Shown here: in pieces, positions 32,568 through 45,498 of the stretch
Layout of the letters: each line of letters starts with the position of its first letter
Numbering within the stretch: the first letter of the stretch is position 1
Assembly (NCBI GenBank): GCA_022822265.1
Contig: JAJECA010000020.1
Location: 53,524-117,523 of the forward strand
From: Acidimicrobiia bacterium
GTDB taxonomy: Bacteria > Actinomycetota > Acidimicrobiia > Acidimicrobiales > Bin134
Direction of reading: 5' to 3'
DNA length: 64,000 bases
Translations under genes and position numbers: made by a program
The notes under the pieces: model-generated
What the model saw: only the letters and a program-made list of their open reading frames with translations
Told to the model about the DNA's origin: nothing
Database searches by the model: none

Positions 32568-34148
32568 ATGGCCCGGGTATTGGTAGCAGAGAAGATCGCC
32601 GACATCGGGGTGGCCAAGCTTCGCCACGCGGGGCACGAGGTTGACGTCCGCACCGGGATGAGCCCCGGCGAGCTGCTGGAGGCAGTGGCGGGAGCACACG
32701 CGCTGATTATCCGGTCGGCTACGCAGGTGACCGCCGAGGTGTTCGACGCGGGCAGCGATCTGGCGATCGTGGGCCGGGCCGGGGTGGGTTTGGACAATGT
32801 GGACGTGGACGCCGCCACCGAACACGGGGTGCTGGTGGTGAACGACACCTTATCCAACATCATCTCGGCCGCCGAGCACACCATGGCGTTGATCTTGTCC
32901 CAGGCCCGGAACATCCCCCAGGCCCATGCTGCCCTCACCGACGGGAGGTGGGAGCGGGGCCGCTGGGAGGGCATCGAGCTGAGCGACAAGACGCTGGGCA
33001 TCGTCGGGCTGGGCCGCATCGGCCGGCTGGTGGCCGAGCGGGCGCTGGGGTTCGCCATGCGGGTGATCGCCAGTGACCCCTACGTGTCGGAGGAGATGGC
33101 CCTTCACAGCGTGATGGCGCTGGTTTCGCTGGAGGAACTGGTGGGCCAGTCCGACTTCATCACCATCCACGTGGCCCGCACCCCCGAGACCGTCGGCCTC
33201 TTCAACTCTGAGCTGCTCAAGCTGGCCAAGCCCAATCTTCGGATCATCAACGTATCCAGAGGCGGGATCGTGGACGAGGCCGACTTGGCCGAAGCAGTGG
33301 CGTCGGGGCGCATCGCCGGGGCGGCCCTCGACGTGTTCGACGGAGAGCCCATCACCGAGTCGCCGCTCTTCGACCTCGACTCGGTGGTGGTCACCCCCCA
33401 TCTGGGGGCCAGCACCGAAGAGGCCCAGAGCAAGGCGGGCGATGCCATTGCCAGCCAGGTGCTTTTGGCGCTGGCCGGGGAGTTCGTGCCCGCGGCGGTG
33501 AACGTGCCAGCCAAGAACGTCCCCGACGTGCTGCGACCCTATATCCCGCTGGCCGAGCAGCTCGGACGCCTGTTCGGGAACCTATGCGAACGGCTGCCCG
33601 AGGTTCTGGAAGTGGAGCTCATTGGCGAGATAGGCAAGCCCGACAACACGGTGGCGGTGATGTCGGTGGTCAAGGGGCTGTTGAGCGCAGTATCGGACAT
33701 GCAGGTCAGCTACGTGAACGCGATGGATGTGGCCAAAGAGAAGGGCATGGAAATACGGGCCATCAGCACGCCCACATCCAAAGAACATGTGAACCTGCTC
33801 ACCGTGCGGGGCGCGGGTCACAGTCTGGGCGGCCGGCTGACCGGGGCTCGCCAAGAGCCGGTGCTGGTGCTCGCCGACGACCACGCCATCCACATGCCGC
33901 CCGCCGATCACATGATCTTGCTGTCCAACGACGACCATCCCGGTGTGATCGGTGCGGTGGGCACCCTCCTGGGGGGCGCGGGGATCAACATCAACGACAT
34001 GAACGTGGGCCGGGCGCCCACCGGGGAGGGGGCTTCTATGGTGATCGCCACCTCCCAGCCGGTGCCCAAGGCAGTGGCCGAGGCGCTGGTGGCCATCGAC
34101 GGAGTACAGGCGGCCCGCTATTTGGGCCTGGCTCCGGCCCAAGAGTGA
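32568..34148 (+). CDS. serA: D-3-phosphoglycerate dehydrogenase
   Basis: First enzyme of serine biosynthesis. The 526-residue length is that of the long actinobacterial SerA type with catalytic, intervening (ASB) and C-terminal ACT domains. The NAD loop is GLGRIGRLVAERA, the catalytic Arg is in NVSRGGIVDEADL and His in VTPHLGAST. The ACT domain near the C-terminus (HMILLSNDDHPGVIGAVGTLLGGAGININDMNVGR) suggests serine feedback. ATG start, with GAGG close upstream or a TATTCT box 8 nt away. It lies immediately upstream of the leucine leader. Confidence 0.95.
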   Translation: MARVLVAEKIADIGVAKLRHAGHEVDVRTGMSPGELLEAVAGAHALIIRSATQVTAEVFDAGSDLAIVGRAGVGLDNVDVDAATEHGVLVVNDTLSNIISAAEHTMALILSQARNIPQAHAALTDGRWERGRWEGIELSDKTLGIVGLGRIGRLVAERALGFAMRVIASDPYVSEEMALHSVMALVSLEELVGQSDFITIHVARTPETVGLFNSELLKLAKPNLRIINVSRGGIVDEADLAEAVASGRIAGAALDVFDGEPITESPLFDLDSVVVTPHLGASTEEAQSKAGDAIASQVLLALAGEFVPAAVNVPAKNVPDVLRPYIPLAEQLGRLFGNLCERLPEVLEVELIGEIGKPDNTVAVMSVVKGLLSAVSDMQVSYVNAMDVAKEKGMEIRAISTPTSKEHVNLLTVRGAGHSLGGRLTGARQEPVLVLADDHAIHMPPADHMILLSNDDHPGVIGAVGTLLGGAGININDMNVGRAPTGEGASMVIATSQPVPKAVAEALVAIDGVQAARYLGLAPAQE

Positions 34149-34174: not shown

Positions 34175-34203
34175 TTGGAAAATGCCGAGGGCTGGCCTAG
34201 GAT
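34175..34203 (+). promoter_or_regulatory. Promoter of the leuA leader
   Basis: TTGGAA (34175-34180), a 17-bp spacer, and TAGGAT (34198-34203). The -10 box ends 7 nt before the ATG of the leader peptide, so the transcript probably begins at that ATG. Confidence 0.65.
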
Positions 34204-34210
34204 TAACCTG

Positions 34211-34246
34211 ATGAGCCGCATCCACACCCACCTGCTGCTCTTGTAG
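34211..34246 (+). CDS. leuL: Leucine leader peptide
   Basis: An 11-codon ORF, MSRIHTHLLLL, ending in four consecutive leucine codons (CTG CTG CTC TTG) right before TAG. It lies 90 bp upstream of leuA and directly before a hairpin and a terminator, which is the classical layout of an amino-acid attenuator. Ribosome stalling at the leucine codons when leucyl-tRNA is short would alter RNA folding. Its ATG is 7 nt from the -10 box, so the peptide itself appears to be read from a leaderless RNA. The track lists only a long serA shadow ending here. Confidence 0.88.
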   Translation: MSRIHTHLLLL

Positions 34247-34270
34247 GGCGAGCACCCAGAGGTGCTCGCC
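34247..34270 (+). promoter_or_regulatory. Attenuator hairpin between leader peptide and terminator
   Basis: GGCGAGCACC and GGTGCTCGCC form a perfect 10-bp stem with loop CAGA, starting at the first base after the leader stop. The Leu-codon stretch CACCTGCTGCTC (34229-34240) is complementary to parts of both arms (GAGCAC and AGGTG), so ribosome position could change this fold. Confidence 0.75.
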
Positions 34271-34273
34271 CCG

Positions 34274-34307
34274 ACCCCCTGAACCCGCAAGGGCAGGGGG
34301 TTTTTTT
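34274..34307 (+). terminator. Rho-independent terminator of the leuA attenuator
   Basis: ACCCCCTG pairs with CAGGGGGT, with an inner CCC-GCAA-GGG stem, followed by seven T residues. It ends 28 bp before the leuA ATG. Confidence 0.9.
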
Positions 34308-34335
34308 GTGAGTCAACTCCAATCGAGGCCATTTC

Positions 34336-36039
34336 ATGAAAACCGGATTACACCCCCAACAGCCGTCGGGAATGCCTACCCACAAGTACCAGGCGTTCGA
34401 GCCGGTCAAGCTGATCGACCGCACCTGGCCCGACGCGGTGCTAACCGGCGCGCCCCGGTGGTGCTCGGTGGACTTGCGGGACGGCAACCAGGCCCTCATC
34501 GAGCCCATGAACCCCGAGCGGAAGTGGAAGATGTTCACCGCATTGGTGGAAGCCGGCTTCAAGGAGATCGAGGTGGGTTTCCCCTCCGCATCGGAGACCG
34601 ACTTCCGGTTCGTGCGGGAGATCATCGAGCAGAAGGCCATCCCCTCAGACGTGCGCATCCAGGTGCTCACCCAGGCTCGCCAAGAGCTCATCGAGCGTAC
34701 CTATGAGGCCATCGACGGCGCGGCCGATGCCATTGTCCACCTGTACAACTCCACTTCCACCGTCCAGCGCCGGGTGGTGTTCGGCCTCGACATGGACGGC
34801 ATCACCGATATCGCCACCCGGGCGGCGGAGTGGTGCCGCTCGCTGGAGCCGCAGGTGCCCAGCACCGAGGTGTACTACGAGTACTCGCCCGAGTCGTTCA
34901 CCGGCACCGAGCTGCCGTTTGCCAAGCGGGTGTGCGACGAGGTGGTGGAGATTTTGGCCGACGGCCACGACAAGCCGGTGATCATCAACCTGCCGGCCAC
35001 CGTGGAGATGTCCACCGCCAACATCTACGGCGACATGATCGAGTGGATGCACCGCAACCTGGCCCGCCGGGACCGGATCGTGCTCAGCCTGCACCCCCAC
35101 AACGACCGGGGGACGGCGGTGGCCGCGGCCGAGTTCGGGCTCATGGCCGGCGCCGACCGGGTGGAGGGAACCCTGTTCGGCAACGGGGAGCGCACCGGCA
35201 ACGTGGATGTGGTGAACCTGGCCATGAACCTGTTCAGCCAGGGGGTGGACCCCGAACTGGACATCTCCGACATCAACGGGCTGCGCCGGGTGGCCGAAGA
35301 CTGCAACCAGCTTCCCATCCACCCCCGCCACCCCTATGTGGGCGACCTGGTGTACACCGCCTTCTCAGGGTCACACCAGGACGCCATCAAGAAGGGGTTC
35401 GAGGCCATGGAGGAGAGCGGCCAGACCCTGTTCGAGGTGCCCTACATTCCCATCGACCCCAAAGACGTGGGCCGCACCTACCAAGACGTGGTGCGGGTTA
35501 ACAGCCAGTCCGGCAAGGGCGGGGTGTCGTACCTGCTCCAGGCCGAGGTGCAGCTCGACCTGCCCCGGCGGATGCAGATCGAGTTCAGCCGGGTGATCCA
35601 GCAGATTGCCGACGAAACCGGCGAGGAAATCACCGCCGACCAGATCCACAGCGAGTTCGCCACCGAGTACCTCGACTTGGACGAGCCCTACCGGCTGAAC
35701 GGCTACGAGTCGGCCCAAAACGCCCGAGGCGCCGACCGCACCGTGGTCACCGCTCGCCTCACCGCCGGCGACGACCAGGTGGTGGTCCACGGCGAAGGCG
35801 CCGGTTCGCTGGACGCCTTCGTGACCGGGCTGAACGAGATCATCGACACCCCGGTAAAGGTGGTGGACTACCACGAGCACGCCCGGGGCGGCGGGACTGA
35901 CGCCGAGGCGGTGGCCTATATCGAGCTGCTGGTGGATGGCCGCGAGCTGTGGGGCTGCGGCATCCACACCGACATCACCACGGCTTCAATGCGGGCCATC
36001 GTGAGCGCGCTGAACCGGGCTTGCGCCGGGTTGGGCTGA
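34336..36039 (+). CDS. leuA: 2-isopropylmalate synthase
   Basis: Condenses acetyl-CoA with 2-oxoisovalerate, the first step of leucine synthesis. The 567-residue protein is the long actinobacterial type: catalytic barrel with SVDLRDGNQAL and the metal-binding LSLHPHNDRGT, then a C-terminal LeuA regulatory domain (VHGEGAGSLDAFVTGLNEII) for leucine feedback. FPSASETDFRFVREIIE is characteristic of mycobacterial/corynebacterial LeuA. ATG start at 34336. Expression is probably set by the attenuator just upstream. The gene lies convergent to a beta-propeller lipoprotein. Confidence 0.96.
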   Translation: MKTGLHPQQPSGMPTHKYQAFEPVKLIDRTWPDAVLTGAPRWCSVDLRDGNQALIEPMNPERKWKMFTALVEAGFKEIEVGFPSASETDFRFVREIIEQKAIPSDVRIQVLTQARQELIERTYEAIDGAADAIVHLYNSTSTVQRRVVFGLDMDGITDIATRAAEWCRSLEPQVPSTEVYYEYSPESFTGTELPFAKRVCDEVVEILADGHDKPVIINLPATVEMSTANIYGDMIEWMHRNLARRDRIVLSLHPHNDRGTAVAAAEFGLMAGADRVEGTLFGNGERTGNVDVVNLAMNLFSQGVDPELDISDINGLRRVAEDCNQLPIHPRHPYVGDLVYTAFSGSHQDAIKKGFEAMEESGQTLFEVPYIPIDPKDVGRTYQDVVRVNSQSGKGGVSYLLQAEVQLDLPRRMQIEFSRVIQQIADETGEEITADQIHSEFATEYLDLDEPYRLNGYESAQNARGADRTVVTARLTAGDDQVVVHGEGAGSLDAFVTGLNEIIDTPVKVVDYHEHARGGGTDAEAVAYIELLVDGRELWGCGIHTDITTASMRAIVSALNRACAGLG

Positions 36040-42956: not shown

Positions 42957-43877
42957 ATGCCAATCGAGACCACCGAGAAGGTTTGGATGGACGGCGAACT
43001 GGTGGACTGGGCCGACGCCACCGTGCACGTGCTCACCCACACGCTCCACTACGGCAACGGCGTGTTCGAGGGCATTCGGGCCTATGAGACCGACGAGGGC
43101 ACCGCGGTGTTCCGGCTCACCCCCCACATCCGCCGGCTGTTTGCCAGCGCCAAGATCCTCCAGATCGACATCCCATTCACGGTGGACGAGCTGGTGGCCG
43201 CCACCAAGAAGACCGTTGCGGTCAACAACCTGAAGAGCGGCTACATCCGCCCCCTGGCCTATCTGGGCTACGGCGAGATGGGGCTGAACCCGCTGTCTTG
43301 TGAGGTGAACGTGGCCATAGCGGTGTGGCCGTGGGGCACCTATCTAGGCGACGAGGGAATTAGGAACGGCGTGCGGCTCATGGTCAGCTCCTGGCAGCGC
43401 CACGACCCCAACTCGATGCCCACCGCGGCCAAGGGTTGCGGGCACTACATCAACAGCCAGCTGGCCAAGGTGCAGGCGCTGAAGGCCGGCTACGACGAGG
43501 CGATCCTGCTGTCGCCCCAGGGCTATGTGAGCGAGTGCACCGGGGAGAACCTGTTTGTGGTGCGCGACGGCACCATCGTCACCCCGCCCACCTCGGTGGG
43601 GGCGCTGGAGGGGATCACCCAAGACGCCATCCGCACCATGGCCTCTGATCTGGGCATTCCCTATACAACCGACAATCTGCTGCGCAGCGACCTGTACCTG
43701 GCCGACGAGGCGTTCCTGTCGGGTACGGCGGCCGAGGTGGTTCCCATCCGGTCGGTGGACGACCGCGAGATCGGCGACCCCGGTCCTATCACCCGCAAGA
43801 TCCAAGAGGTGTTCCACGACGCGGTGCGGGGTCGACAGGCCCAGTATCGGCACTGGAACGAGCATGTCGACCACTGA
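42957..43877 (+). CDS. ilvE: Branched-chain amino acid aminotransferase
   Basis: Class IV PLP aminotransferase for the last step of Leu, Ile and Val synthesis. 306 residues: KVWMDGELVDWADATVHVLTHTLHYGNGVFEGIRAYET is the standard opening, KVQALKAGYDEAILL carries the PLP lysine, and YVSECTGENLFVV and GITQDAIRTMASDLGI follow. A good ribosome binding site (AAAGGA) precedes the ATG. Overlaps cimA by 14 bp. Confidence 0.95.
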   Translation: MPIETTEKVWMDGELVDWADATVHVLTHTLHYGNGVFEGIRAYETDEGTAVFRLTPHIRRLFASAKILQIDIPFTVDELVAATKKTVAVNNLKSGYIRPLAYLGYGEMGLNPLSCEVNVAIAVWPWGTYLGDEGIRNGVRLMVSSWQRHDPNSMPTAAKGCGHYINSQLAKVQALKAGYDEAILLSPQGYVSECTGENLFVVRDGTIVTPPTSVGALEGITQDAIRTMASDLGIPYTTDNLLRSDLYLADEAFLSGTAAEVVPIRSVDDREIGDPGPITRKIQEVFHDAVRGRQAQYRHWNEHVDH

Positions 43878-45498
43878 GGCCACCGGTTCCCGTTCTCTGC
43901 CCGCCGCGGTAGAGATTTACGACACCACCCTTCGCGACGGGAGCCAGCTCGAGGGGATCTCCCTCACGGTGGAGGACAAGCTCCGCATCGCCCGTCAGCT
44001 CGACTCCCTCGGCGTCCACTACATCGAGGGGGGCTGGCCCGGCTCCAATCCCAAAGACGACGAGTTCTTCGCCCGAGCCCGCGATGAACTCGCCCTGGAG
44101 ACCAGCACCCTGGTGGCCTTCGGCTCCACCCGAAAGGTGAAGGGGCGTACCGACGAGGATCTCACCCTGGCCAACCTGGTGGCCTCCGGTACTGAAGTGG
44201 CCTGCATCGTGGGCAAGTGTTGGGACTACCACGTGGTGGAGGCCCTGCGGACCACCCTGGACGAAGGCGTGGCCATGGTGGCCGACTCGGTGCGGTTCTT
44301 GAAGGACAACGGCATGCAGGTGTTCTTCGACGCCGAGCACTTCTTCGATGGATTCCACCACAATCAGGAATACAGCCTGGCGGTACTGGAGGCGGCCGCG
44401 GTGGCCGGTGCCGACCGGCTGGTGCTGTGCGACACCAACGGGGGTTCGCTGCCGTCGAGGGTGGAGGACATCGTGGGCGCGGTGGTCGACTACCTGGACA
44501 CCCCGGTGGGAGTCCACCTCCACGACGACACCGGCTGTGGGGTGGCCAACGCCCTCGCCGGCGTGCGAGCCGGGGCCATCCAGGTGCAGGGCACCATCAA
44601 CGGCTACGGCGAGCGCACCGGCAACTGCAACCTGGTGCCGATCATCGCCAACCTCAGCCTGAAGATGGGTGTGGAAACCGTTCCTCCAGACCGCCTACAG
44701 CGGCTTACCGCGGTGTCGCACCATGTGGCCGAGTTGGTGAACTTCACGCCTGATCCTCAGCAGGCCTACGTGGGATCATCGGCATTTGCCCACAAGGCCG
44801 GCCTCCACACCAGTGCCATCGCCCGCCGCCCCGATGCCTATGAGCACATCGATCCGGCGGCGGTGGGCAACGGCACCCGGTTCGTGGTGTCAGAGATGGC
44901 GGGGCGCTCCACGGTGGAGCTCAAGGCCGAAGAACTGGGCCTCGACCTCGACGGCAAAGCCGTGGGCGAGATTGTGGAAACCCTCAAAAGGCTGGAGCAC
45001 GCCGGCTATCACTTCGAGGTGGCCGACGCCTCCCTGGAGTTGCTGATGCGAGGGGCGTCGGGATGGGCGCAGCCGTACTTCGAGCTGGAGTCGTTCAAGG
45101 TGGGCACCGAGCACCGGTCGGGCACCGGAGCCCGAGCCTGGAACGAAGTAGCGGTTGAGATGGAAACCGAGGCCATCGTGAAGCTTCACGTGGGCGGTGA
45201 GCGCATTGTGGCCACCGGGGAGGGCAACGGCCCGGTCAACGCCATGCACGCCGCGCTGATGACGGCGCTGGGCGATCGCTATCCCGCGTTCCGGTCGATC
45301 TCGCTCATCGACTACAAGGTGCGGGTGCTTGACACCGCGGCAGGGACCGCGGCGGTCACCCGGGTGATCATCGACTCCACCAACGGTGACCGGGTTTGGA
45401 CCACCATCGGCGTGTCCACCAACATCGTGGAGGCCAGTTGGCAGGCCCTGGTGGACAGCCTGGTGTTCGGGCTCCTCCACAGCGAAGACGGAGGATGA
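43864..45498 (+). CDS. cimA: (R)-citramalate synthase
   Basis: Makes citramalate from pyruvate and acetyl-CoA, a threonine-independent entry to isoleucine via leuCD and leuB. The tracked ORF (43555) starts in an ilvE shadow; the ATG at 43864 (MSTTEATGSRSLPAAVEIYDTTLRDGSQLEG) is the proper start, giving 544 residues. HLHDDTGCGVANALAG has the metal-binding HxH, and FVSEMAGRSTVELKAEELGL plus the regulatory C-terminal domain (HVGGERIVATGEGNGPVNAMHAAL) distinguish CimA from LeuA. It is coupled at both ends (14-bp overlap with ilvE, ATGA with the next gene). Confidence 0.93.
   Translation: MSTTEATGSRSLPAAVEIYDTTLRDGSQLEGISLTVEDKLRIARQLDSLGVHYIEGGWPGSNPKDDEFFARARDELALETSTLVAFGSTRKVKGRTDEDLTLANLVASGTEVACIVGKCWDYHVVEALRTTLDEGVAMVADSVRFLKDNGMQVFFDAEHFFDGFHHNQEYSLAVLEAAAVAGADRLVLCDTNGGSLPSRVEDIVGAVVDYLDTPVGVHLHDDTGCGVANALAGVRAGAIQVQGTINGYGERTGNCNLVPIIANLSLKMGVETVPPDRLQRLTAVSHHVAELVNFTPDPQQAYVGSSAFAHKAGLHTSAIARRPDAYEHIDPAAVGNGTRFVVSEMAGRSTVELKAEELGLDLDGKAVGEIVETLKRLEHAGYHFEVADASLELLMRGASGWAQPYFELESFKVGTEHRSGTGARAWNEVAVEMETEAIVKLHVGGERIVATGEGNGPVNAMHAALMTALGDRYPAFRSISLIDYKVRVLDTAAGTAAVTRVIIDSTNGDRVWTTIGVSTNIVEASWQALVDSLVFGLLHSEDGG

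Follow-up and report, generated by a model that had tools for sequence, protein, structure and literature searches.

The window analysed here, a stretch of 64,000 nucleotides from the genome of a sponge-associated actinobacterium, carries leuA, the gene for the enzyme of the first step of leucine synthesis, downstream of serA (Table 1). A citramalate synthase gene lies about 7.5 kb 3' of leuA, at positions 43555-45498 of the window (TIGR00977, E=5.5e-196). For the interval between serA and leuA, a preliminary description had set out a promoter with the hexamers TTGGAA and TAGGAT separated by N17, a gap of 7 nt to an ATG, the encoded peptide MSRIHTHLLLL, a 10-bp hairpin and a terminator with a T7 tract, and direct reading finds each of these elements in its place, as well as the four leucine codons (CTG CTG CTC TTG) with which the leader was said to end. 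The hairpin that follows the stop codon, referred to below as hairpin 1, has a predicted stability of -23.3 kcal/mol in the window and is extended by an eleventh pair with the G of the TAG.

Table 1. Positions of the leuA leader elements and flanking genes in the window.
Feature	Position	Strand	Basis or remark
serA, phosphoglycerate dehydrogenase, upstream neighbour	32568..34148	+	TIGR01327 E=1.7e-161 (NCBIfam)
-35 element TTGGAA	34175..34180	+	Direct reading; TGTTTGG kept in most leader-bearing genomes of the genus, flanking DNA diverged
-10 element TAGGAT (TAnnnT)	34198..34203	+	7 nt upstream of the leader ATG
Leader ORF MSRIHTHLLLL-TAG, ATG 34211-34213	34211..34246	+	Predicted leaderless
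Hairpin 1, GGCGAGCACC-CAGA-GGTGCTCGCC, 10 bp	34247..34270	+	Begins at the first base past the stop codon
Intrinsic terminator stem GACCCCCTG / CAGGGGGTT, inner CCC-GCAA-GGG	34273..34302	+	Covariation
T7 tract of the terminator	34301..34307	+	Direct reading
GAGG, likely leuA ribosome binding site	34325..34328	+	
leuA, 2-isopropylmalate synthase, putative controlled gene	34336..36039	+	NF002991 E=3.5e-257, TIGR00970 E=1.5e-229 (NCBIfam)

We built two covariance models of the element, R1 from 43 loci including the window, and R2 from 28 loci with the genus of the window left out, the rows of R2 having been found and aligned with R1. In the 3.48-Mb host genome R2 returned a single match, the window element itself (E=1.4e-12), and R1 matched 306 of 397 genomes and 172 of the 203 sampled genera of the order, indicating that the window element is not a chance arrangement. 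Across a sample of the phylum, searched at a looser cut-off (E=0.01), R1 matched 40 of 297 genomes, 15 of which lie outside the class. As judged from these sequence matches, the layout is conserved through most of the order. This distribution bears on the simplest explanation of the locus, in which an ordinary serA terminator, a leuA promoter and a small ORF arisen by chance lie side by side with no regulatory meaning. The terminator starts 125 nt past the end of serA and could end serA transcripts as well, but the end of the leader, the hairpin and the terminator are kept as a unit in 172 of the 203 genera, and the same unit is found before two types of LeuA and before apparent leuS and ilvB genes in other classes, so that a non-regulatory origin is extremely improbable.

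Searched against Rfam 15, the window gave only a tRNA at gathering score, the element being unmatched, and four loci from relatives gave nothing up to E=1. A literature search on leaderless and leucine attenuators, the Acidimicrobiia, the LEU element and leuL, and hairpin-adjacent terminators turned up no description of the element, which itself looks undescribed in Rfam 15 and the literature searched. Within the genus of the window, a LeuA search of 22 genomes of the family yielded 20 alignable upstream regions, and the leader is present in 16 of them. Four loci of the same genus are without leader and terminator and have serA close to leuA; in one of these a piece of the upstream sequence survives, pointing to a deletion.

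Among 60 loci fetched with the model, a LeuA relative was encoded nearby in 53 and none in 7, and these relatives are of two types, either about 60% or about 25% identical to LeuA of the window. Three of the seven non-LeuA loci were called leuS-like and three ilvB-like, by eye from their translations and without a family search, and the last was too short to judge. The leuS-like and ilvB-like targets sit in other classes; leaders of the ilvB type contain codons for Leu, Val and Ile. One genome contains two copies of the element, one before a window-like LeuA and the other before a bacterial-type LeuA, and two model matches also occur in several further genomes. Short ORFs, for example MLRLTTLRLIG, precede window-like LeuA at four loci in records titled Reyranella, Alphaproteobacteria and Asaia.

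A LeuA search of 298 genomes of the order, together with 79 upstream regions, revealed two leader architectures, with LEU-type leaders in five families and the window layout in most others. The existence of the former raises the question of whether the leucine run of the window, too, pairs with the leuA ribosome binding site and controls translation, termination having no role, as in the LEU element described for Actinobacteria (Seliverstov 2005, PMC1262725). Leaders of that kind do stand before leuA in neighbouring families of the order, but this explanation is very unlikely for the window, since the LEU element is without a terminator, whereas the window has a covarying intrinsic one, and the leucine run of the window abuts the stop codon instead of lying upstream of a stop-spanning hairpin. 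Some of the 33 LEU-type leaders from these sister families (LLLxLRLxxPxx) have a TAnnnT 6-9 nt before the start, and an unconstrained promoter scan, which is noisy, gave leaderless spacing in 16 of the 33.

Within the genus (n=16), mean column identity was 85% in the -10 box and 74% in the 7 nt upstream of the ATG, then rose to 99.5% from the ATG through hairpin 1 and stood at 96% over the terminator. A conservation boundary located exactly at the ATG is expected if the transcript starts there, and it supports a leaderless start. For the wider family, we selected non-redundant representatives by k-mer overlap (n=126) and scanned them for promoters, choosing the best -35/-10 pair by consensus matches and blind to the start codon; where a leader had several in-frame starts, the one nearest 7 nt was used, and the out-of-frame control (the two other frames) was treated alike. 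The best promoter stood 6-10 nt before an in-frame start in 107 of the 126 representative leaders, but in only 5 of 252 control frames. Because a spacing of 9-10 nt leaves a 5' end of a few nucleotides, part of the family is better described as leaderless or nearly so. Shine-Dalgarno-like matches before the leader were at most 3 nt long in 104 of the 126 and reached 5 nt in one, and in the window, where the ATG follows the -10 box after just 7 nt, no Shine-Dalgarno sequence precedes the leader ORF. These sequence data support the prediction that transcription begins at the leader ATG (34211) or no more than about 3 nt away from it, and a start well upstream of the leader is made less likely by both the promoter spacing and the step in conservation.

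The leaders of relatives were also checked for missing leucine codons, and a terminal run of 3-5 such codons was present in 124 of the 126 representatives. CTT and CTC made up 39.5% and 36.8% of leader leucine codons, respectively, versus 5.6% and 38.0% in leuA ORFs, corresponding to an enrichment of CTT in the leaders (P=9e-27) in two sets that overlap without being identical (leuA stretches from the 53 fetched loci, and leaders that are representatives among those); the window uses CTG CTG CTC TTG instead. Taken together, the conservation step, the promoter spacing and the leucine run support at the sequence level the earlier proposal of a leucine attenuator with a leaderless leader peptide, and we consider it very probable that the element is indeed an attenuator.

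Both helices of the element are conserved as structures. When 100 loci were aligned to R1, 99.1% of cells were paired and 14 of the 15 pairs showed changes on both sides, with 126 both-sides-change cells compared to 23 after shuffling. Such changes were found in all eight model pairs of hairpin 1 (99.0% of cells paired) and in six of the seven of the terminator stem (99.3%). When every pair of columns was scanned for covariation, the top-ranking signals came only from hairpin 1 and from the terminator with its inner stem, in an alignment that had been fitted to those two helices and favours them; partner swapping among the 126 representatives confirmed both (z=-22 and -19). The spacing of the parts, extracted by a parser from the fetched loci, is equally constrained: although the parser tolerated up to 3 nt between stop codon and hairpin and about 17 nt between hairpin and terminator, hairpin 1 begins 0-1 nt after the stop codon and ends 0-6 nt before the terminator in 126/126, and a single codon lies between the last leucine codon and the stop in 118/126.

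We then predicted folding as a function of ribosome position, setting the ribosome footprint at 15 nt from the P site, which is the E. coli value. Over the 126 leaders, the predicted probability of hairpin 1 fell from 0.99 to 0.62 and then to 0 as the A site moved from the first leucine codon to the last and on to the stop codon, and the terminator was predicted for all ribosome positions in no fewer than 124 of them. The window behaves in the same manner, with hairpin 1 predicted to be folded when the ribosome is at the first leucine codon and blocked when it is at the stop, and with a terminator probability near 1 at all ribosome positions. This last result bears out the earlier remark that no strong antiterminator is visible, and the missing coupling between hairpin and terminator that had been pointed out is real and extends to the whole family, as indicated by the swap test, the covariation scan and the folding.

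The unbiased covariation scan of the 100 loci showed the two hairpins and no conserved antiterminator, suggesting that a classical 2:3 antiterminator is missing. Partner swapping across the 126 representatives likewise gave no support for pairing of the leucine run with the terminator 5' arm or with either arm of hairpin 1, of the hairpin-1 arms with either terminator arm, or of the upstream part of the leader with several segments. A pairing seen by eye between a recurrent hairpin loop, CACAUA, and the terminator 5' arm was not borne out. When other terminators were sought against which to compare the CCTCC terminator arm, just 14 weak hairpins emerged, too few to serve as a control. The one combination with weak support was that of the leucine run with the terminator 3' arm (z=-2.6, P=0.004), which had looked stronger on the first 44 loci (z=-4.3). 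If the leucine run were an antiterminator strand of this kind, formed in the window by CUGCUCUUG with CAAGGGCAG (9 bp of complementarity), a ribosome-free leader would be read through, and a ribosome on the leucine run or at the stop would permit termination. The terminator 3' arm does contain a conserved RGGRGG with which leucine codons can pair, but the signal is not significant upon synonymous-codon resampling (z=-0.8) or permutation (z=-1.2) and is absent from the unbiased scan, and in the window the terminator fold is favoured over the alternative by about 9 kcal/mol. Moreover, ilvB-type leaders keep a similar terminator without such a leucine run, and a ribosome stalled on the run would cover the strand and thus give the wrong direction of control. 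We therefore regard a leucine-run antiterminator as improbable.

We favour the reading that the element is a transcription attenuator in which the ribosome senses leucine and the leader peptide is leaderless, a reading that rests on comparative sequence data and to which we assign a probability of roughly 0.7. According to this model, the conserved promoter would set the transcript start at or a few nucleotides from the leader start codon. When leucine is abundant, the ribosome would reach the stop codon, cover the 5' arm of hairpin 1 and melt it, and the terminator would then halt transcription ahead of leuA. With charged tRNA-Leu scarce, the ribosome would stall within the leucine run, leaving hairpin 1 folded and leuA transcribed, such that leucine shortage probably switches on leuA by means of the peptide gene and the terminator. 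We lean towards hairpin 1 as the switch because it is the only part whose formation follows ribosome position and no alternative pairing is supported.

How hairpin 1 might act on the terminator is the most speculative step. Since no competing antiterminator pairing was found, we tentatively propose a steric route, itself rather doubtful, in which the folded hairpin, 0-6 nt away, would impede closing of the terminator stem at the exit channel of RNA polymerase. Double-adjacent hairpins, however, are discussed as intrinsic termination signals (PMC8355165), which tells against a role of hairpin 1 in blocking termination. Another possible though not favoured explanation is that hairpin 1 makes the polymerase pause and so keeps it in step with the ribosome, the switching being done by a short or non-covarying antiterminator that escaped the present analysis. 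This would parallel E. coli trp and the proposal for the C. glutamicum ilvBNC attenuator, which is modelled in this manner with an antiterminator/terminator overlap amounting to the trinucleotide GCC, and pairings of invariant sequence yield no covariation signal; on the other hand, apart from the weak leucine-run signal, none of the other partners tried for the terminator arms did better than swapped ones, and folding predicts the terminator in at least 124/126 leaders wherever the ribosome stands.

Returning to hairpin 1 as the switch, the general form of the idea would be an attenuator without antiterminator, in which a hairpin present only as long as the ribosome is delayed at the leucine codons suppresses the adjoining terminator through exit-channel obstruction or polymerase contact and no arm is stolen; we consider this unlikely. 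With the distances from leucine run to stop, stop to hairpin and hairpin to terminator all fixed, and no antiterminator covarying, the element offers a clean system for testing control by a hairpin beside a terminator. It would also be a further conserved RNA regulator, without an Rfam entry, that acts on leucine synthesis in the greater part of one actinobacterial order and has members in other classes that stand before apparent leuS and ilvB genes.

In the E. coli trp and leu attenuators, regulatory codons lie just before the stop codon, RNA folding reads the position of the ribosome and a terminator follows; they have, in addition, a ribosome binding site for the leader and a 2:3 antiterminator that is explicit. 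The window element shares the codons before the stop and the terminator, but its leader is without a ribosome binding site. Closer parallels come from Actinobacteria. In C. glutamicum ilvBNC, the leader start codon lies one nucleotide after the transcription start and the leader contains branched-chain amino acid codons, but valine codons are the ones that matter, as opposed to leucine in the window element, and its three-hairpin model includes a terminator and an antiterminator overlapping by GCC, the like of which was not found here (PMC11857589). The LEU element shares with the window a leucine-run leader peptide before an actinobacterial leuA, but forms a pseudoknot or hairpin whose base stem consists of the leucine codons and the ribosome binding site and has no terminator, whereas in the window the hairpin follows the stop codon and is itself followed by a terminator (Seliverstov et al., 2005, PMC1262725). 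Mycobacterial polycysteine leaderless short ORFs, presented in the title of Canestrari et al. (2020) as amino-acid-responsive attenuators, concern cysteine and not leucine, and no conserved terminator hairpin was seen upstream of the mycobacterial cys operons by Seliverstov 2005 (PMC1262725). Several leader peptides of S. lividans, among them LeuL1, LeuL2, TrpL1 and IlvL, are leaderless. A typical terminator is missing after LeuL1, which precedes leuA, in contrast to the leuA leader of the window, but LeuL2, upstream of leuS, is a leaderless peptide with a leucine run, as predicted for the window, and is followed by a hairpin and a U stretch (PMC8079986). Although leaderless attenuation had at first been taken for an unusual form, it is not new in itself, being documented in Streptomyces, C. 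glutamicum ilvBNC and, according to the same title, the mycobacterial polycysteine ORFs. We conclude that switches of this type were known from Actinobacteria before and that the window element is one variant of them.
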